This document shows, in pieces, positions 4,453 through 29,931 of a DNA stretch of 29,931 bases. Source of the DNA: Anaerolineae bacterium (GTDB taxonomy: Bacteria > Chloroflexota > Anaerolineae > Promineifilales > Promineifilaceae); assembly GCA_028277515.1 (NCBI GenBank), contig JANQGC010000291.1, positions 1-29,931 of the forward strand, given 5' to 3'. A program made the translations under genes and the position numbers. Every line of letters starts with the position of its first letter. The first letter of the stretch is position 1. The notes under the pieces are model-generated. The model searched no databases. It was not told the DNA's origin and worked only from the letters and a program-made list of their open reading frames with translations.

Positions 4453-4641
4453 TTATTTTTTATCTTTGGGATTCTTAGTCAATCGATCAAAGATTGCCTT
4501 TGTATCAATCGGCTCATTATCCGGTCCCTCCTGGCGCATTTCAGCAAGCGTCATTTCTCCCCGGGCAACGGCCGACACCTGCCTTTGTGAAAAACCATCA
4601 ATATAAAGTTCGCGAACATCAATGCCGATGGCGCTACTCAA
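4453..4641 (-). CDS. Possible small hypothetical protein
   Basis: A 62-residue reading frame with a protein-like composition (SQRQVSAVARGEMTLAEM, then an acidic-basic tail ending NPKDKK). It can start only at a TTG (4639-4641), because an in-frame stop lies a few codons upstream; an ATG eight bases further upstream (4647-4649) is in another frame. The start may therefore be frameshifted, or this may be the end of a decayed gene. I do not recognise a family. It fills part of an otherwise gene-free 286-bp gap, convergent with the preceding membrane protein. Confidence 0.35.
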   Translation of the reverse strand: MSSAIGIDVRELYIDGFSQRQVSAVARGEMTLAEMRQEGPDNEPIDTKAIFDRLTKNPKDKK

Positions 4642-4732
4642 GTCGCCATCGTGCCTCTACTCTTTTTATCTTTATTCTGTTCCTGTTTTTGCATAAAGCT
4701 ATATTAGTATGCAGAATCTAAATCGATCCTGC

Positions 4733-4915
4733 TTATTGTAAAAAATATCCGGCGAAAATGAAAATCGCATACCGGATCTGGTTAGGGATAGTTCCCTTTT
4801 CCGCCGGATCAGTTTCCACACCTTCCCTCAATTGGCGCTGAATCACCGCCTCTCGCCGTAACTGCTGCTGTTTATTTTGGGCAGCAAATTTTTGCCATCC
4901 ATAATTGCTATTCAT
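4733..4915 (-). CDS. Small conserved-type hypothetical protein
   Basis: A 60-residue protein starting MNSNYGWQKFAAQNKQQQ, with a basic, glutamine-rich helical N-terminal half (about residues 5-32) and a hydrophobic C-terminus (IRYAIFIFAGYFLQ) that could be one membrane segment. The ATG at 4915 has a strong GGAGGG five bases upstream, which decides the start over an in-frame ATG at 4927. The N-terminal pattern resembles very small Chloroflexi proteins that often follow other genes in short operons; this is from memory. It is probably cotranscribed with the 127-residue gene 21 bp upstream. Function unknown. Confidence 0.7.
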   Translation of the reverse strand: MNSNYGWQKFAAQNKQQQLRREAVIQRQLREGVETDPAEKGTIPNQIRYAIFIFAGYFLQ

Positions 4916-4936
4916 GTCACCCTCCAATTCCCACTT

Positions 4937-5320
4937 CTATACGTGAACCGTTTTTGTGTTTTTATGCCACTCTCTTTCCAGCAAGCGTAGGAATTCGGCC
5001 GCTGCCGGGCGCAGTGCTGCCACGCGCTGTTCTCTCCCTTTATCTGTACCGCCCATCTGCTTTTCCCAAATCGCGGCCAGTTCTTTTTCGCTGTCCTGAA
5101 CGCCACCCTTCAGAAACCGGGTGAGCACCGGCGCGGCTTGATGGGATAAAAACCAAATATCGAATAATGAATCCACGTATTGTGGATGGCGTTCAGTGAA
5201 ACGAGCGTGCGTTTGCTGGATAACCTCGGAAAACTGGTGACGCTGCCGGGAATCACCCAGAACCCAACCTAACATTTTTTTATAATGAACCGCCGGCTTA
5301 AAATCACTAATCGATAACAT
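4937..5320 (-). CDS. Hypothetical protein, 127 residues
   Basis: A soluble, mostly helical protein of unknown family (MLSISDFKPAVHYKKMLGW at the N-terminus; basic and glutamate-rich in the C-terminal third, REQRVAALRPAAAEFLRLLERE). The ATG is preceded by a textbook GGAGGT with good spacing. It is the first gene of a two-gene unit with the 60-residue protein downstream. It is divergent from the MocR regulator, with a 110-bp shared control region, so it is the most likely local target of that regulator. No catalytic motif is visible. Confidence 0.7.
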   Translation of the reverse strand: MLSISDFKPAVHYKKMLGWVLGDSRQRHQFSEVIQQTHARFTERHPQYVDSLFDIWFLSHQAAPVLTRFLKGGVQDSEKELAAIWEKQMGGTDKGREQRVAALRPAAAEFLRLLEREWHKNTKTVHV

Positions 5321-5350
5321 GATGGACCTCCGAGAAAATTTGATCTGCTG

Positions 5351-5379
5351 TGTTTGTTGCCAACAGGATAAGGTATAAT
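5351..5379 (+). promoter_or_regulatory. Candidate promoter of the MocR-family gene
   Basis: A perfect -10 hexamer TATAAT lies at 5374-5379, 51 bp before the ATG. The sequence 17 bp upstream (TGTTTG, 5351-5356) is a poor -35, and a better TTGCCA at 5357-5362 is too close (11 bp). If active, the promoter is probably activator-dependent, which would fit autoregulation by the MocR protein in this divergent intergenic region. Confidence 0.35.
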
Positions 5380-5430
5380 TGGTTTACTCGAAAGAGCCAT
5401 TTAACTTATAATTGAAGGGACCAATTCAGC

Positions 5431-6921
5431 ATGGTCAAAAAAGCAGGTTTTTTCTCCATCCCCATCAATCTGGACCGCGAGCGGCCGCAGCCTCTATGGC
5501 AGCAGCTTTACGATTCCTTGCGCCAACAGGTGCTCAATCGCCAACTTGTGGGCGGCACCCGCTTGCCGCCGACGCGCGCCTTAGCCAAAGAATTAGGCGT
5601 CGGCCGCAACACCATCAATAACGCCTACGACCAGCTTATTGCCGAGGGATACCTGGAAGCACGCCAGGGGTCCGGCACTTTCGTCAGCGATCAGCTCCCC
5701 GAAAACCTGCTGCGAGTACGCGCCGAAGGTCCAATGACAGCCTCCAAGACGCTTCCAAAAGAAAATAAGCCTCCCAACCTCTCACGATACGGCCATAAAA
5801 TTGCCACGTCTAATCTTCAGGAAACCATTGACCGGGGTGCGCCCATACCATTTCGCCCAGGCACTCCTGCACTAGACGCCTTTCCATTCGATTTGTGGCG
5901 CAAATTAGAGAATAAACGCTGGCGCAAGGTGTCGGCCGAACTACTGGCCTATGGTCCCACCGCCGGCTGGCCGGAATTGCGAGAAGCCCTGGCTAACTAT
6001 TTAGGCCCGGCGCGTGGTGTGCGCTGCGCTCCGGAGCAGATCATCATTACTGTGGGCACGCAGCAGGCTATCATGCTCACTATCCGTGTTCTGGTAAACC
6101 CTGGAGACACCGTATGGGTGGAAGAACCGGGTTACATCAGCGCACGCAATCTCATGGCCGCCAATGGAGCTAAGATTGCACCCATTCCCGTCGATGGGGA
6201 AGGGATCGATGTCGCCGCCGGGCAAAAAATCGCCCCCCAGGCACGGCTGGCGTATGTTACCCCCTCCCATCAATATCCGACAGGAGCACTCATGAGCCTG
6301 CGCCGCCGATTAGAATTGCTTTCCTGGGCGCGTGAAAATGATGCCTGGATTCTTGAAGACGATTATGATTCCGAATACCGCTTTGAGGGTCATCCTATGT
6401 CATCTCTGCAAGGTCTGGATGATGGTCGGCGCGTGATATATGCCGGCTCCTTCAGCAAAGTCCTCTACCCATCCTTGCGTTTGGGATATATGATCGTGCC
6501 CCCATCTCTGGTTGAAGTGCTGACGATGGCCCGTCTGGCCAATGACCATTCTTCCCCCCTCATTACCCAGGCTGTGGTCGCTGATTTCATCAACGATGGG
6601 CACTTCGCGCGTCACATTCGCCAGATGCGGACGGTATACCAGGAACGGCAAAGTGTGCTCATTGAGGCTGCGCGTTCTTTGCTGGATGGGTTTCTGACCA
6701 TTGATGCCAAACCGGCCGGATTACATGCGATGGCCTGGCTGAATGAAGGGCTTAATGCTGATAAGGTTGAAAAGCAGTTCGCCGCTGTGGGGATAGAAAC
6801 GCCTTCCATAAGCAAGTATTCTTTTGGCGAACCTTCTCGCCAGGGTCTTGTCCTGGGTTATGGCGCTTTTTCACCAGCATTAATCTGGCAAACAATCCGC
6901 AAAATGGCTACTCTTATATAA
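5431..6921 (+). CDS. MocR/PdxR-type regulator (GntR helix-turn-helix fused to an aminotransferase-fold domain)
   Basis: A 496-residue transcription factor. The N-terminal winged helix-turn-helix (about residues 13-85) contains RLPPTRALAKELGVGRNTI and LEARQGSGTFVS, the GntR signature. The rest is a fold-type I PLP domain with ILEDDYDSEYRF and the PLP lysine in SFSKVLYPSLRLGY (Lys343). Family members bind PLP as internal aldimine and control genes for vitamin B6, GABA or amino-acid metabolism, usually from a divergent promoter. Here the divergent genes are two hypotheticals, not pdxST or gabT, so the regulated pathway is unclear. The ATG at 5431 has only a weak purine stretch (GAAGGGACC) upstream. 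Length is normal for the family. Confidence 0.9.
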   Translation: MVKKAGFFSIPINLDRERPQPLWQQLYDSLRQQVLNRQLVGGTRLPPTRALAKELGVGRNTINNAYDQLIAEGYLEARQGSGTFVSDQLPENLLRVRAEGPMTASKTLPKENKPPNLSRYGHKIATSNLQETIDRGAPIPFRPGTPALDAFPFDLWRKLENKRWRKVSAELLAYGPTAGWPELREALANYLGPARGVRCAPEQIIITVGTQQAIMLTIRVLVNPGDTVWVEEPGYISARNLMAANGAKIAPIPVDGEGIDVAAGQKIAPQARLAYVTPSHQYPTGALMSLRRRLELLSWARENDAWILEDDYDSEYRFEGHPMSSLQGLDDGRRVIYAGSFSKVLYPSLRLGYMIVPPSLVEVLTMARLANDHSSPLITQAVVADFINDGHFARHIRQMRTVYQERQSVLIEAARSLLDGFLTIDAKPAGLHAMAWLNEGLNADKVEKQFAAVGIETPSISKYSFGEPSRQGLVLGYGAFSPALIWQTIRKMATLI

Positions 6922-6940
6922 AGGAATCGCTGATTTCCTT
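6921..6940. terminator. Weak hairpin between convergent MocR and MscS genes
   Basis: AAGGAATC (6921-6928) pairs with GATTTCCTT (6932-6940) with one bulged base, starting on the last base of the MocR stop codon. The stem is AT-rich and has no T-run, so it is a possible but weak bidirectional terminator in the 22-bp gap. Confidence 0.35.
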
Positions 6941-6943
6941 CGC

Positions 6944-7876
6944 TTATTGATTATCCGGGGTTTCAGGTGGATTGAACTCTCCCTTATTTGAAGGCGGGAA
7001 ATAAATTCGCTGGGTTGGATAAGCAAAAGCGATATCCTCATACTCGTCAAAAGCAGCCAGAATATCCTCCCAGATTTTATTTTCACTGCCCCTTCGCTGT
7101 TTGGGATTACATAGATAACGTAGGGTCAACAGGACACCGCTGGCTTCCACACTGATGTATACAATGGGCGTCAAGTTTTTGTAATAAATCATATAGTGGC
7201 TGGCCGCATTACGCACGCTCTCCCGTGCATCCTTCACCAGCGGCGTCGCATGTTTTTCAATGATGGCCGTCAGGGCTTCCTTCGCTTTATGTCGGTTGCT
7301 TTCAAAGGTAATCAAAACCGGAATCTCATTCCAGATATAAGTAAAACCGCGGCTGTAATTGGCCAGTGTCTCATTAAAAATCTTGCGGTTGGGGATATGC
7401 AATACCCGGCCCGTGCTCTGGTCGGCATCTACCCAGTTGCCAATTTCCATGATCGTGAACTGAAAATAGCGCACATCAACTACATCTCCCGCATTTTGGC
7501 CGATTTCAATGCGATCACCGACCTCAAATGGGTGGCGGAAGATGATAAATATCCAACCGAAGAAATTAGTGATCGGGTCCTGCAGGGCGATGGCTAAACC
7601 GGCGGACAGTAATCCCAAATAGGTAGCGAATGAACCAATGTCGTTGACCCAAATTCGGCCGATTAACAGCAAACCCACAACCAGTGTGGCATACTCAATC
7701 GTTTTGCGCCAGCGATATTTATAAGCAACATCTTCTTCCCTGCGGCGTATGACAGATAGCAGAATAAGCCTGGCGGCCCAGATGAGGATGATGACGGCCA
7801 GGGTATAGAAGATCTGCTCTTGTAATGTGGGAGCGAGACCGAGATTCTCTTCAATCCATTGTGTGATGGTGTTCAT
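6944..7876 (-). CDS. Small-conductance mechanosensitive channel (MscS family)
   Basis: A 310-residue inner-membrane channel that opens under membrane tension during osmotic downshock. Three hydrophobic helices are seen (about residues 20-41, 61-79 and 82-113). The last is the pore helix, with GLLSAGLAIALQDPITNFFGW matching the MscS TM3 pattern. It is followed by the beta domain (HPFEVGDRIEIGQNAGDVVDV) and an alpha/beta C-terminal domain. The ATG at 7876 has AGGAAA upstream. It is a single gene, convergent with the MocR gene. The acidic C-terminal tail (NPPETPDNQ) is short. Function is confident; specific ion preference cannot be read. Confidence 0.92.
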   Translation of the reverse strand: MNTITQWIEENLGLAPTLQEQIFYTLAVIILIWAARLILLSVIRRREEDVAYKYRWRKTIEYATLVVGLLLIGRIWVNDIGSFATYLGLLSAGLAIALQDPITNFFGWIFIIFRHPFEVGDRIEIGQNAGDVVDVRYFQFTIMEIGNWVDADQSTGRVLHIPNRKIFNETLANYSRGFTYIWNEIPVLITFESNRHKAKEALTAIIEKHATPLVKDARESVRNAASHYMIYYKNLTPIVYISVEASGVLLTLRYLCNPKQRRGSENKIWEDILAAFDEYEDIAFAYPTQRIYFPPSNKGEFNPPETPDNQ

Positions 7877-25332: not shown

Positions 25333-25945
25333 TTAAGATGGAGTAAGCAGACGACGATACAACCAAATCTGGAGTATCATATAAACCAACCCTAAGATAA
25401 TTGCCACAGTCCAGTTCGCCTGGCCGATGACAAGACTGAGGAAGTAAATGCAGGCTCCAAATGAGACGCCACCCAGCAGAGCTACTTGTAGAGCTAAGAG
25501 AAAGGCGATGCTCCAAGGTTTATAGGTCGAGGGTATGCTTTTTTCGCTCCAACGCAAGGCTTCATGCAACGGCAAGGGTTGAAGCTGCTCAAGGTAAAAT
25601 TCTTTTATCTGATTCAACGCCCGCACACTCTCAGTCCAGGGCCTGGCGCAGGCGCACAAGCTGTAGTAGCGTTGACAAACCAAACAAGGTCAAGGTCAGG
25701 AAAACCACAACCAATGCGCGATGTATATTATCCAGGGCGATATTATCTACTTGCAAACTGAACAAAGCGGCGATCAGGGTTCCGAAAGTGACGATATAAA
25801 AGGTGCTGACCCGCGCCCGATCTTCATTGGCCTGGAACGCCGTTTGAGCGATGTAATCATATTCGGCCGATAAAAAATTGCCTGCTCTATCCAATTGCTT
25901 ATTATTCTTTGCGTCGAGCAGGTCCCCACCAGCCATATCACTCAT
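25333..25945 (-). pseudogene. Four-helix membrane protein interrupted by a one-base frameshift
   Basis: Two overlapping reading frames make one protein. The first (25945 to a stop at 25631) gives MSDMAGGDLLDAKNNKQLD... through two membrane helices to LVRLRQALD. The second (in frame from upstream of the shift to 25333) continues WTESVRALNQIKEFYLEQ and two more helices to RRLLTPS. Removing one G from the GGG at 25639-25641 (plus strand) joins them as LVRLRQAWTESVRAL, giving about 203 residues. The start overlaps the stop of the cyclic-nucleotide-binding gene by 8 bp, so they are coupled. The cause may be a recent mutation, a sequencing or assembly error, or less likely programmed frameshifting. 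Confidence 0.8.
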
Positions 25946-26294
25946 CCATATTCCTACGCAGCCGGTTAGCCATGATTTCTAACATATCTAGGGCGAAGAA
26001 TGGAGAATGCTGCACGTAAAAAGTGAAATCGAAACGATTGACCAGGGCAGTTTTTGTTGGTTGGGCGGCGCGGGCGGTGGCGCTGCGCGGGCTGTCATCG
26101 ATCAAGGCCATTTCACCAAAAACCTCACCCACTTGAATTTTGTTAATGATCTTATCCTGATAAACGATATCGACCTCCCCCTCCAGCACCACATACATAT
26201 AATCACCGGCCGCTCCCCTCTCGAAAATAACTTCTCCCGACTGGAAATCTTTAGTTTTCCGGGCATCCTTAAAAATTTCTAACGAAATAGGCAT
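25938..26294 (-). CDS. Standalone cyclic-nucleotide-binding domain protein
   Basis: A 118-residue protein consisting of one CNB (CAP_ED) domain. The beta barrel (SGEVIFERGAAGDYMYVVLEGEVDIVY) is followed by the phosphate-binding cassette VFGEMALIDDSPRSATARA, which has the Glu and Arg that contact cAMP or cGMP. It has no helix-turn-helix, so it is not a Crp-type regulator. It likely relays a nucleotide signal by protein contact, and the translationally coupled membrane protein downstream is the obvious partner. ATG 26294 is chosen for its GAGGAGA site six bases away. The 290-bp gap from here to 26585 contains no clear gene, promoter or repeat. Confidence 0.88.
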   Translation of the reverse strand: MPISLEIFKDARKTKDFQSGEVIFERGAAGDYMYVVLEGEVDIVYQDKIINKIQVGEVFGEMALIDDSPRSATARAAQPTKTALVNRFDFTFYVQHSPFFALDMLEIMANRLRRNMDE

Positions 26295-26584
26295 TTGATT
26301 CTCCTCATCTTCGGGCCAAGGCAAACCATAGAATGGCATTAACCTTTACAAAGATTCTTAAGTTTCAAGCTGCGACCGGTCTCCTGACCGTGTCGCCTCT
26401 CGCCTAAAGAACTTCTGTCTTGTACTTAACAAGCAGCATGACTCCTTAGCGTATGATAACATCCCTCAACTGATGGACAAATAGTCACAAGAGATTTGTA
26501 TTGCGAAAATTTAAAGTGGTTGCCTTTTTCAGGTGAGTAAGTAAAAATAGGCCCCGTTGAAAAATTTCCCAATATGGAGAATGC

Positions 26585-27043
26585 ATGTCATCTGAAGAAT
26601 ATTATCGACCGGATACACCAAAAGTCATACATGAAACCATTGATGGCGAAGCGGTCATGATTCACATGGAAAAAGGATATTATTACAGTCTGGACAAAAC
26701 CGGATCGACCGTCTGGAATATGCTGGAAAGCGGCACGGCCGTCAGCCAAATTACCGCTTACTTAAAGGAAAATTACGCTGGAGATCCGGCCGAAATAGTG
26801 CATAGCCTTCAAGATCTGCTCAATGAGTTGCAAACAGAAGAATTAATTGTGCCTGGCAAAGCAGAATCGAATCAAGCAACAACTGATCCGTCTCAATTAA
26901 TGAGCAATGGCACTCCGGCAACAAAACCAGCATTTGTTCCCCTACAATTACACAAATATACAGATATGGAGGATTTACTCCTGCTCGATCCCATCCATGA
27001 GGTAGATGATACGGGTTGGCCTGCCCTTCCTGATGAAAGCTAA
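26585..27043 (+). CDS. PqqD-domain (RiPP recognition element) protein with precursor-like C-terminal tail
   Basis: A 152-residue protein. Residues 1-92 are a PqqD/RRE winged-helix domain (GEAVMIHMEKGYYYSLDKTGSTVW, then DLLNELQTEELIV), which binds leader peptides of ribosomally made peptides. After a Ser/Thr/Gln-rich linker (93-113) comes a tail, FVPLQLHKYTDMEDLLLL then DPIHEVDDTGWPALPDES. P-x-x-L-x-x-Y-T-D-x-x-x-L resembles the P-x-L-x-x-L-G-D-x-x-x-L core of lasso-type leaders, and the protein ends in Ser. TGGAGA precedes the ATG. The stop shares one base with the start of the HPr kinase-like gene (TAATG), so both are made together. A RiPP role is inferred. Confidence 0.8.
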   Translation: MSSEEYYRPDTPKVIHETIDGEAVMIHMEKGYYYSLDKTGSTVWNMLESGTAVSQITAYLKENYAGDPAEIVHSLQDLLNELQTEELIVPGKAESNQATTDPSQLMSNGTPATKPAFVPLQLHKYTDMEDLLLLDPIHEVDDTGWPALPDES

Positions 27044-28098
27044 TGGCCTTTGAACAAACTGAACCAAATATTATTAAAATCCCAGACCCGGTTCAGTTCT
27101 TCGATACATTTTACTATTTCTTCCACAAAGCCGCCCGGCAAGCCGGTGAAACGATCGATCGCTATTTTCTCATTCATGGCCAAACGATTTGCCTGCGTTT
27201 CGCCGGTCCGGCGCTCGTATCACAACTAACCCCAGCCCTGGCTCATTTGGCAATAGCTCCCGTGCAGAACCCGGCTCTAATTATTTGTATCTGGGACTCA
27301 GCATCCACCCTCACCAGCAAACCACCCCTCCCCCCATCCGTGCCTATGCCTCGCGGCGACATTCCAGGCTATATGAACCAGCGTATCGTCACCCATGTTG
27401 GAGCCGATCTCTTTAGCACCCTGGATCGCGAACGGGGATTGGCCGTGTACTGGTGTGCCGATGCCCAGCAGCTACCCCTTTATGAACGTGGCGCACCATT
27501 GCGCTCGATATTGCACTGGTGGTTTCAAACCATCGATATTCATCTGGTGCACGCCGGGGCGATTGGCAACCAAAACGGGGCAGTTTTATTGGCTGGAAAA
27601 GGCGGATCAGGAAAATCAACGACCTGTCTCTCCTGTCTCCAATCCGATTTGCTATATATCAGCGATGATTACTCATTCATTGGACTTCAACCACAACCGT
27701 ATGTCCACACTATCTATAACACAGCCAAGCTGCGACCTGACAATTTGCAGCGCCTGCCCCATCTGCGGCAAAATATTGCTAATGCCGATAAATTAAAGAG
27801 TGAGAAAGCCCTGTTTTTTTTACAACAGCATTTTCCTGATAAATTGGCAAGGCAGTTGCCTTTAAAAGCGCTACTGCTGCCAGGCGTGAGCGGTGAAAAA
27901 GATACACGGGTAAAACCGGCCGCAGCGCGTGAAAGTTTAGGCGCTTTACTGCTGAGCACCATGCATCAACTGGCCGGAACGGATCAAAAGACCATAAGCA
28001 CCATAAAGGAACTTGTTACCCGTATTCCTTCTTATCACCTGCGTTTAGGGTCAGACTTGTCTCAGATACCAACGGTTATTTCTGACATGTTGCCATGA
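27043..28098 (+). CDS. HPr kinase-like (HprK family) protein kinase
   Basis: A 351-residue protein whose C-terminal half is an HPr-kinase type P-loop domain. It shows HAGAIG (residues 170-175), Walker A GKGGSGKST (185-193) and the acidic ISDDYSFI (206-213, Asp208/Asp209) that matches the catalytic/metal positions. The N-terminal half (about 1-150) is divergent. It lacks the canonical PTS-linked HprK context: no HPr or phosphotransferase genes are near. Instead it is coupled to a PqqD/RRE gene, the setting of kinases such as ThcoK that phosphorylate the C-terminal Ser of lasso precursors. The likely substrate is therefore a peptide or the PqqD tail. This is an inference. Confidence 0.8.
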   Translation: MAFEQTEPNIIKIPDPVQFFDTFYYFFHKAARQAGETIDRYFLIHGQTICLRFAGPALVSQLTPALAHLAIAPVQNPALIICIWDSASTLTSKPPLPPSVPMPRGDIPGYMNQRIVTHVGADLFSTLDRERGLAVYWCADAQQLPLYERGAPLRSILHWWFQTIDIHLVHAGAIGNQNGAVLLAGKGGSGKSTTCLSCLQSDLLYISDDYSFIGLQPQPYVHTIYNTAKLRPDNLQRLPHLRQNIANADKLKSEKALFFLQQHFPDKLARQLPLKALLLPGVSGEKDTRVKPAAARESLGALLLSTMHQLAGTDQKTISTIKELVTRIPSYHLRLGSDLSQIPTVISDMLP

Positions 28099-28328: not shown

Positions 28329-29024
28329 TTGAATAATCATTTGCCATCAATTAGCGTCATTATCCCCGTCTATAATGCTGAACAGTATTTGGCAGAAGCG
28401 CTAGAAAGCGTCCTTGAACAATCCTACCCGCCTAGTGAAATTATCATTGTTAATGATGGTTCCAGTGACCGGTCGAGAGTCGTTGCCGAAAGTTTTGTCC
28501 CACAGGTATCTGTCCTGCATCAATCCAATCAGGGAATCAGTGCAGCACGAAACCTGGGCATCAGGGAGGCTCAAGGCGACTATCTTGCTTTCATTGACGC
28601 CGACGACATCTGGCTGAAAGATAAATTACAAGATCAAATAAAAGTTTTCAAACAAGATGAGAATGTCGACGTTGTATATGGCCATGCCAGGCAATTCTAC
28701 AGCCCCGACCTACCACAAGAAATCAAAGAAAAGCTATTAATCCGACAGCAAATTTTACCCGCGCACGTTGCCTGCGCCATGCTTATCAAACGCCGGGCAT
28801 TTATGCGCGTGGGTTTGTTTTCAACGAGCCTGGTCGTAGGAGTTGATCAAGATTGGTACATACGGGCGAAGGATACCGGGTTAAACTCCGTGCTGCTACC
28901 CCAGATTCTATTTATGCGCCGCATTCATGAAGGTAATCAAGGTCGGCGAATGAAACATCTTACCAACACAAGGTTGCATATTCTAAAAGCTGCCATCGAT
29001 CGCCGGCGCAAAGAGGAATCGTAA
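28329..29024 (+). CDS. Family 2 glycosyltransferase
   Basis: A 231-residue GT-A enzyme with no membrane segment. ISVIIPVYNAEQYLAEALES is the nucleotide-sugar binding start, VNDGSSDRS the next conserved loop and FIDADDIW (residues 91-98) carries the metal-binding DxD. A conserved acid lies in VGVDQDWYIRA. It is shorter than processive family 2 enzymes, so it probably transfers a single sugar. The start is a TTG at 28329, with GGAG 11 bases upstream; no ATG is available. It follows the PqqD-HPr kinase pair across a repeat-filled gap, and closely resembles the convergent glycosyltransferase next to it. The acceptor is unknown. Confidence 0.88.
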   Translation: MNNHLPSISVIIPVYNAEQYLAEALESVLEQSYPPSEIIIVNDGSSDRSRVVAESFVPQVSVLHQSNQGISAARNLGIREAQGDYLAFIDADDIWLKDKLQDQIKVFKQDENVDVVYGHARQFYSPDLPQEIKEKLLIRQQILPAHVACAMLIKRRAFMRVGLFSTSLVVGVDQDWYIRAKDTGLNSVLLPQILFMRRIHEGNQGRRMKHLTNTRLHILKAAIDRRRKEES

Positions 29025-29050: not shown

Positions 29051-29773
29051 TTATAGCTCTTTACCAGGCAGCTTAGGTAATGGACCCAAATTGCCCGATG
29101 CGCTTCGTCGCTGTAAGGATCGTCTCACCAGCATGGGGATTTGGTAATCTTTCGTAGGTTGGGAGTGCATCAAGCTATTGGGATGCATGCGATGATGTAG
29201 GCAAACATCGTTCATTGCTCCTTGATTTAGACCCATCTCAGTAGCTCTAAGCAGCCAGTCGTTATCCTCCCCTGTTATAAAGGTTTCATCAAAAACACCG
29301 ACTTTATCAAACGCCTCTCGTCTAAATAAGGCAGACCCTAATTGGTAAGCGATTCTCGTTTGGTTTTCATCTAATGGGATTTTTTTATCCCTCTCGCTAA
29401 ATTCTCCAAAATACTTAGACCGGCCCCATACTACAACCATTTGAGGATGATCCAGTAAGTAAGCCAATTGACGCCTTAACTTGTTTTCTGGCCAGATATC
29501 ATCGGCATCAAGAAAAGTAATAAAATCCCCCTTGGCCAGGCCTAATCCTTTATTTCGGGCGGCCGCCGGTCCGGCATTTTCCTGGTTGATAAGGGTCATT
29601 TTCATTTCCAGGCTTCTTACAATTTTCAGCGAATCATCGGTTGAACCATCGTTGATCACAATCAATTCCAATGGTTCGTAATTTTGTTGTTGTATGCTCC
29701 GTAAGGCTTCGATCACAAAGTTTCTGGCATTATAAACGGGGACAATTACAGTAATTAAGGGGGGTTTCATCAT
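29051..29773 (-). CDS. Family 2 glycosyltransferase, paralogue of its neighbour
   Basis: A 240-residue GT-A enzyme built like the preceding one. It shows ITVIVPVYNARNFVIEALRS, INDGSTDDS, GPAAARNKGLGLAKGD and FLDADDIWPENKL with the DxD metal site, then the conserved acidic TGEDNDWLLRA. The C-terminal tail (RRSASGNLGPLPKLPGKEL) is basic and proline-rich. It is convergent with the other glycosyltransferase, 26 bp apart. The two share the same order of motifs across their length, which points to duplication. The gene starts at one of two consecutive ATGs (29773 or 29770), with GGAAATG just upstream. Its promoter region lies in the repeat-containing end of the window. Confidence 0.88.
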   Translation of the reverse strand: MMKPPLITVIVPVYNARNFVIEALRSIQQQNYEPLELIVINDGSTDDSLKIVRSLEMKMTLINQENAGPAAARNKGLGLAKGDFITFLDADDIWPENKLRRQLAYLLDHPQMVVVWGRSKYFGEFSERDKKIPLDENQTRIAYQLGSALFRREAFDKVGVFDETFITGEDNDWLLRATEMGLNQGAMNDVCLHHRMHPNSLMHSQPTKDYQIPMLVRRSLQRRSASGNLGPLPKLPGKEL

Positions 29774-29928: not shown

Positions 29929-29931
29929 AAT

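Follow-up and report, generated by a model that had tools for sequence, protein, structure and literature searches.

RREs are a common entry point of many RiPP pathways, in which the precursor is normally a separate polypeptide. Among described systems, the nearest to the locus treated here are the linear polyphosphorylated peptides (LPP) of Bacillota, RiPPs reported by Popov et al. in May 2026, whose loci, in the sections of that paper on which we draw throughout (PMC13381572), are rich in glycosyltransferases and share a core set without macrolactam cyclase: a discrete lasso-type RRE, an HprK-like kinase, an uncharacterised NTP transferase and an MsbA-like exporter. LPP precursors are separate ORFs that carry the motif YxxPxVLxHQxIxFETxxS and have variable C termini, and the single precursor put to the test receives its phosphate at core S3 and is cleaved by an SpI-like peptidase (PMC13381572). 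The same sections give the RRE-binding motif of lasso and LPP leaders as [Y/W]xxPx[L/V/I/F/A] and define the leader-groove residues of PbaB1. A second likeness is to the paeninodin, ThcoK and pseudomycoidin lasso peptides, which, in the relevant part of PMC9266682, also combine a kinase bearing His-Lys-Asp-Asp residues with a nucleotidyltransferase; in those systems the modification falls on the Ser that ends a separate precursor, and lasso formation is completed by B2 and C proteins. The portions of PMC13381572 and PMC7470986 used here describe discrete RREs as binding leaders that are separate from them, and the lasso B1 protein TbiB1 is a 91-residue chain without a tail such as the one considered below. 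In a 2025 survey (PMC12710340, the part concerned), 21% of PF05402 proteins exceed the size of a discrete RRE without any other Pfam annotation. A prior description of the family presented here was not found in the open-access PMC literature.

The window, by which we mean the whole stretch of 29,931 nucleotides from an Anaerolineae bacterium, is apparently the whole of its contig and ends at position 29931, so that genes can be seen only up to that point. On the forward strand it encodes a 152-residue RRE-tail protein (26585..27043), an ORF with homologues of the same architecture, whose layout is the one that an earlier note had read from this DNA: a PqqD/RRE domain (residues 22-88; 26648..26848), a linker (residues 89-116; 26849..26932) and a tail. 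Within the tail we distinguish a leader-like strand, F117-Y125 (FxxPxLxKY in the family; 26933..26959), a distal part, D127-P146 (DMxDLLLLDPIHEVDxTGWP; 26963..27022), which is the most conserved element, and a variable C-terminus that includes Ser152 (27023..27040), all on the same strand. The one-base overlap with an HprK-like kinase ORF (27043..28098), noted at the same time, is also confirmed. The RRE scores 54.4 bits against PF05402 (PqqD; gathering score 23.4), 14.9 bits against the PQQ PqqD equivalog TIGR03859 of NCBIfam (cut-off 46) and 52.1 bits against the NCBIfam lasso B1 model NF033536 (cut-off 80), thus lying above the first threshold and under the other two. In its AlphaFold model, strands 14-19, 22-27 and 33-37 precede helices 38-48, 53-63 and 68-84. 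A stand-alone cyclic-nucleotide-binding domain protein (PF00027) is encoded upstream on the reverse strand (25938-26339).

The homologue search returned 890 proteins at E <= 1e-3; the alignment was made of the best 120, which include the protein of the window itself. Mean pairwise identity over these 120 reaches 79% in tail residues 117-146, against 44% in the RRE, 56% in residues 1-21, 17% in the linker and 20% in the last six residues; the outcome that the earlier note had named as fatal to its proposal, an unconserved tail beside a conserved RRE, did not arise. Since the best 120 homologues had been chosen partly by the tail itself, conservation was approached from the genome side too: a tail-profile scan of a genome collection, many of whose members are MAGs, gave 203 relatives, the best 80 of which were kept as loci, with Chloroflexota, Cyanobacteria, Acidobacteria, Desulfuromonadales, Nitrospirota, Planctomycetes and Bacteroidetes included in this best 80. 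Eleven residues (D127, L131, L132, L134, D135, P136, H138, V140, G144, W145 and P146) are identical in 121 of 121 proteins, and six of these (D135, P136, H138, V140, G144 and W145) are also unchanged in all 24 divergent tails; outside those 24, V140 is replaced by Thr in L034 and by Ile in L165. Over the codons of residues 117-140 (81 sequences), first and second positions are 73% and 86% identical and third positions 40%, a figure on which we reject chance or recent transfer as the sole cause of tail conservation. A tblastn search gave no viral relative.

Several variants of the tail were seen. Four loci from cyanobacterial-phylum genomes of 1.7-2.1 Mb (L165-L168) and one of planctomycetal phylum (L179) share a divergent form, EY(N/S)DAQE(L/M)LL(A/T)DPIHE(V/I)K...GW(T/K)P, and have a longer extension behind it at the C-terminus. 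Three loci of Thermodesulfovibrionia or Nitrospiraceae (L047, L051, L055) repeat an extra (G/D)WP segment beyond the canonical GWP of the ORF, and one further locus (L170, 9589-10224), which may be a decaying copy, has Arg at the position of W145 and a kinase ORF that stops early.

The view of the tail as a leader-like, RRE-bound element, put forward in the earlier note, draws support from its motif, from the conserved groove and from the modelled strand. The proximal FxxPxLxKY fits the published [Y/W]xxPx[L/V/I/F/A], but with Phe in the place of Tyr or Trp; position 120 is Pro in 119 of 121 proteins, and the window protein has Leu120. When the PbaB1 groove residues were mapped onto the family by alignment, with an offset of five, the 12 sites putatively assigned in this way had a mean majority frequency of 0.73, compared with 0.52 in the rest of the RRE. 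Nine of the 12, but not the other three, hold a hydrophobic residue (a class taken here to include Ala, Cys and Thr) in 115 or more of the 120 proteins. The AlphaFold model, one per protein here as elsewhere in this work, puts residues 122-125 in a strand and 128-131 in a short helix, with a block pLDDT of 80-82; this block is flanked by a linker close to 50 (46-55 in the blocks covering residues 91-110) and a distal tail of 57-63. Its top structural matches are TbiB1-leader complexes, and the secondary structure together with this likeness is consistent with contact between strand 122-125 and the RRE groove in cis.

The modelled strand is also what one would expect if the tail belonged to the RRE fold in a purely structural way and played no role in interaction. 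We consider this very improbable, since the distal half, at pLDDT 57-63, shows no confident packing on the RRE and yet is highly conserved, and since a weak second RRE elsewhere carries a leader-like strand with no DPIH. The latter occurs among the four small cyanobacterial genomes: three of them have a kinase ORF with a weak RRE match (14-22 bits) at its C-terminus, beyond which, by eye, the strand is present and the DPIH is not; these three C-termini look as if the strand belonged to the RRE and DPIHEV..GW were a separate functional part.

The earlier note had further suggested Ser152 as a residue to be tested for phosphorylation by the adjacent kinase. We reject this site, since of 121 proteins two end in Ser, one of them being the window's. 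Nor was an invariant Ser, Thr or Tyr found anywhere in the tail, whether in the 121 proteins, the 24 divergent tails or further loci. At position 126, Thr or Ser is present in 115 of the 121; the residue is Ala, Asp or Val in L023, L053, L054 and L074, Glu or Asp in L157, L158, L171 and L175, and, in the small cyanobacterial genomes, Asn in three and Ser in one, while position 125 may be Tyr, Phe or His. Because these two positions vary, the tail has no universal Ser/Thr/Tyr phospho-acceptor, and to judge from its frequency Thr/Ser126 could be a common one.

The kinase itself (351 residues, forward strand) is modelled with a pLDDT of 94.8 and matches PEPCK and HprK folds. Its P-loop, GKGGSGKST (residues 185-193; 27595..27621), has G188, G190 and K191 invariant among 46 kinases (A4), as are His170 (27550..27552) and the first residue of the pair Asp208-Asp209 (27664..27669), D209 being kept in at least 90%. 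We assign H170, K191, D208 and D209 as the putative equivalents of the His-Lys-Asp-Asp set named for lasso-tailoring HprK-like kinases in the part of PMC9266682 cited above, and on these residues and the fold the protein is predicted to be an active kinase. It shares fold, P-loop and Asp-Asp with the HPr kinase/PEPCK superfamily, but its N-terminal part aligns with PEPCK only and it lies far under the NCBIfam kinase cut-offs (29.2 bits against 200 for TIGR04352, HprK_rel_A; 12.6 against 240 for TIGR00679, HPr(Ser) kinase). A PDB sequence search gave no match at E <= 1, where Foldseek and VIA did match. Against an HMM built by us from the kinases of related loci, it scores 460.7 bits.

The coupling of RRE-tail protein and kinase that the overlapping genes had suggested proved strong at the loci, in phylum surveys and in the cyanobacterial overlap. 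The surveys were led by the kinase (E <= 1e-20) and blind to the tail, and covered 793 genomes of four phyla, the latter judged from the centre loci; each sample contains its centre genome, known beforehand to carry the system. Kinase-positive genomes numbered 9 of 194 in cyanobacteria, 11 of 199 in Acidobacteriota, 6 of 201 in Chloroflexota and 6 of 199 in Planctomycetota, and tails were present in nine, nine, two and four of these, respectively, that is, in 24 of 32, four of them survey centres. A tail search blind to the kinase recovered the same nine of the 194 cyanobacterial genomes, an overlap with a chance probability of about 1e-15, or 2e-14 without the centre genome. Every one of the 20 genomes whose best kinase reaches at least 113 bits carries a tail (four of the 20 being survey centres), so the kinase is not always found without PqqD, the second outcome that would have told against the earlier proposal. 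The eight kinase-positive genomes without a tail (G238, G309, G425, G526, G547, G574, G698 and G716) have best kinases of at most 105.7 bits; because the four small cyanobacterial genomes, which do have the tail, score 77-101 bits, the kinase score alone cannot sort the two kinds. A tree does separate them. It has 69 kinases, with a tail-less one as its root, and covers six of the eight tail-less genomes plus a second kinase of L036; the 60 kinases that had been chosen because they lie at tail loci fall into a single clade (support 0.946, one parsimony change) and the nine tail-less ones stand apart.

Exceptions exist on the other side. The kinase is absent at 11 of the 80 loci, four of which (L035, L052, L055, L070) stop within 2.6 kb downstream. 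For the other seven the genomes were searched: four (G003, G004, G012, G013) have a kinase elsewhere, namely those of L015, L027, L067 and L074, with the L027 kinase some 11 kb off on the same contig and that of the L067 genome split, one of its two pieces being on the same contig. Weak matches are all that G006 and G011 hold, and G005, the genome of L045, has none. The tail can thus persist without the kinase. The RRE-tail gene of L045 (1786-2256) has no nearby kinase, GT2 or ABC match and adjoins genes of the D-Ala-D-Ala carboxypeptidase and L,D-transpeptidase families.

Beyond the kinase, the window encodes two GT2 glycosyltransferases, one of the cluster family on the forward strand (28329..29024; PF00535, E 5.9e-40; 287.5 bits with a self-made family HMM) and a second on the reverse strand (29051..29773; E 5.9e-34; 246.1 bits). 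As detected with our own HMMs, neighbours in the 80 loci are the kinase in 69, GT2 in 70, a nucleotidyltransferase in 59, an MsbA-like ABC protein in 32 and GT4 in 20; in the 57 that extend 5 kb or more downstream, the corresponding counts are 53, 52, 47, 25 and 11. No nucleotidyltransferase or ABC gene is visible in the window; in relatives, three representatives of the former belong to PF14907, and two of the latter are ABC_membrane/ABC_tran proteins that resemble MsbA at 274 and 279 bits, under the MsbA cut-off of 602. Kinase and GT2 probably cooperate, since in nine of the 80 loci (L032, L033, L037, L039, L047, L051, L059, L062 and L079) the kinase is joined to one or two GT2 domains in a single polypeptide. 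A different fusion was seen at L175 (8220-10157), where an ORF of 645 residues comprises an RRE, an internal tail, a very weak RRE-like stretch (4 bits) and a kinase.

A further 116 same-strand neighbours fall into 92 families, the commonest being radical SAM (8), sulfotransferase (7) and short-chain dehydrogenase (6), followed by methyltransferases. Among the 25 commonest of these families there is no peptidase, no SpI-like leader peptidase, and neither lasso cyclase nor B2; lasso cyclase and B2 peptidase are equally missing from the seven ORFs scanned in the window up to the contig end at 29931. On these 25 families, the neighbourhood looks more like one of glycan decoration than of peptide release. 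One locus, L036, holds a few kb upstream of its RRE-tail cluster (4547-7601) a tail-less RRE, an HprK-like kinase and a nucleotidyltransferase-HMM match. A frame in the same interval resembles, by eye, what we take to be a lasso B2 peptidase, and a lasso-type cluster may thus adjoin the RRE-tail cluster.

The question of where a substrate peptide would come from was addressed through 1309 small intergenic ORFs, which contain no recurrent separate precursor, the widest group occurring in 3 of 80 loci; a scan of small ORFs for [YW]..P.[LVI], with Phe excluded, gave scattered matches and no family. This bears on two readings. In one, the adaptor would be autoinhibited: the tail would be a pseudo-leader that closes the groove until displaced by a true substrate peptide encoded elsewhere, an idea in keeping with the conserved groove, with the binding motif carried by the protein's own tail and with the binding of separate leaders by discrete RREs (PMC13381572; PMC7470986, in the portions cited). 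We regard it as improbable, in that no small ORF recurs by the clusters and the top conservation of the distal DPIHEV..GW would go unexplained.

In the other reading, the precursor would be fused: the tail would combine a leader with the conserved core of a product resembling a RiPP, presented in cis by the RRE, modified by the kinase, the GT2s and the nucleotidyltransferase, freed by a general protease and exported by the ABC protein. The FxxPxL leader motif, the predominance of Thr or Ser at position 126, the lack of a recurrent separate precursor and the possible free tails discussed below (L074) speak for it, as does the gene set of RRE, HprK, NTP transferase and MsbA-like protein held in common with LPP RiPPs in the sections of PMC13381572 used here. 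What it meets with is a tail that has no invariant hydroxyl and no variable core such as LPP precursors have, that is internal in L175, that is followed beyond GWP by a short, variable stretch, and that has no peptidase among its commonest neighbour families; we therefore hold it possible but rather doubtful.

The comparison with LPP can now be drawn more closely. The window family has a kinase with the fold and catalytic residues of the HprK-like type and, in relatives, the NTP transferase and, less often, an ABC protein resembling MsbA, at the frequencies given above; its tails lack the motif YxxPxVLxHQxIxFETxxS and a conserved Ser in the manner of the S3 acceptor. Its RRE-binding motif is fused to the RRE and ends in DPIHEVDETGWP, and the family spans many phyla, whereas LPP are of Bacillota, according to the same sections of PMC13381572. 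With no separate precursor seen, no FETxxS and no conserved Ser, the family is read as related to LPP, not as a member, and in this related system a precursor-like element may be read, from sequence, as having become a fixed part of the adaptor.

Fused and free-standing tails were compared as the earlier note had called for: tail and RRE lie in a single open frame at 79 of the 80 loci, and a widespread free-standing form is rejected, with few possible cases among short proteins. A single-sequence search gave one candidate, P0121, and an alignment search gave 530 short proteins; in the 120 of these 530 that were listed (P0121-P0240), an RRE remnant above 5 bits is present in 64, and many others lie on contigs under 2 kb or look, by eye, like internal starts. 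P0140, P0121 and P0170 are possible free tails by sequence. The first of these is the L074 ORF (1589-1840), a tail of 83 residues with no RRE upstream, in a genome that has two more RRE-tail genes beside kinase genes. Two other loci, L145 and L146, were seen to carry the tail on longer stretches.

Taken as an argument about function, these observations lead us to prefer, tentatively and at somewhat less than an even chance, a self-loaded RRE adaptor whose tail would dock kinase and glycosyltransferases for a product of phospho-glycan type, with a precursor modified in place as a close second. In this preferred mechanism, FxxPxLxKY would lie as a beta strand in the leader groove of its own RRE, or of a neighbour's, and would thereby hold the distal tail (DMxDLLLLDPIHEVDETGWP) at the groove exit, where it would dock or activate the kinase of HprK/PEPCK fold together with its partners, the GT2 and PF14907 enzymes. 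These enzymes would jointly build the product, to be moved by the MsbA-like exporter where one is present, and the tail would work while still attached, with neither release by a dedicated peptidase nor phosphorylation of a terminal Ser. The analysis itself establishes the architecture, its conservation, the co-occurrence of genes, the predicted folds and the neighbourhood; the filling of the groove in cis, docking, the activity of the kinase and the kind of product are inferred.

A further reading, to which we give rather little weight, is that the tail would act as a peptide carrier built into the protein: the RRE would hold it as a conserved primer, and on this primer the kinase and the row of GT2s would assemble an oligosaccharide, attached via an invariant Asp or His or via the usual Thr/Ser126, the protein being recycled after transfer and export. 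Were this the case, the family would represent ribosomal carrier proteins that serve glycan assembly, with a logic like that of carrier-peptide systems, and of such proteins the open-access PMC searches gave no description.

The significance of the family lies in a recognition motif and a near-invariant effector peptide fused to an RRE across many phyla, tracking one clade of kinases down to four cyanobacterial genomes of 1.7-2.1 Mb. The tail gives one group among the oversized PF05402 proteins of the 2025 survey (PMC12710340, the part cited) a motif, partners and testable residues. In sequence terms, the whole points to an uncharacterised peptide-guided sugar-modification system, the product of which, once found, would reveal either a new class of glyco-phospho RiPP or a peptide-scaffolded glycan pathway.
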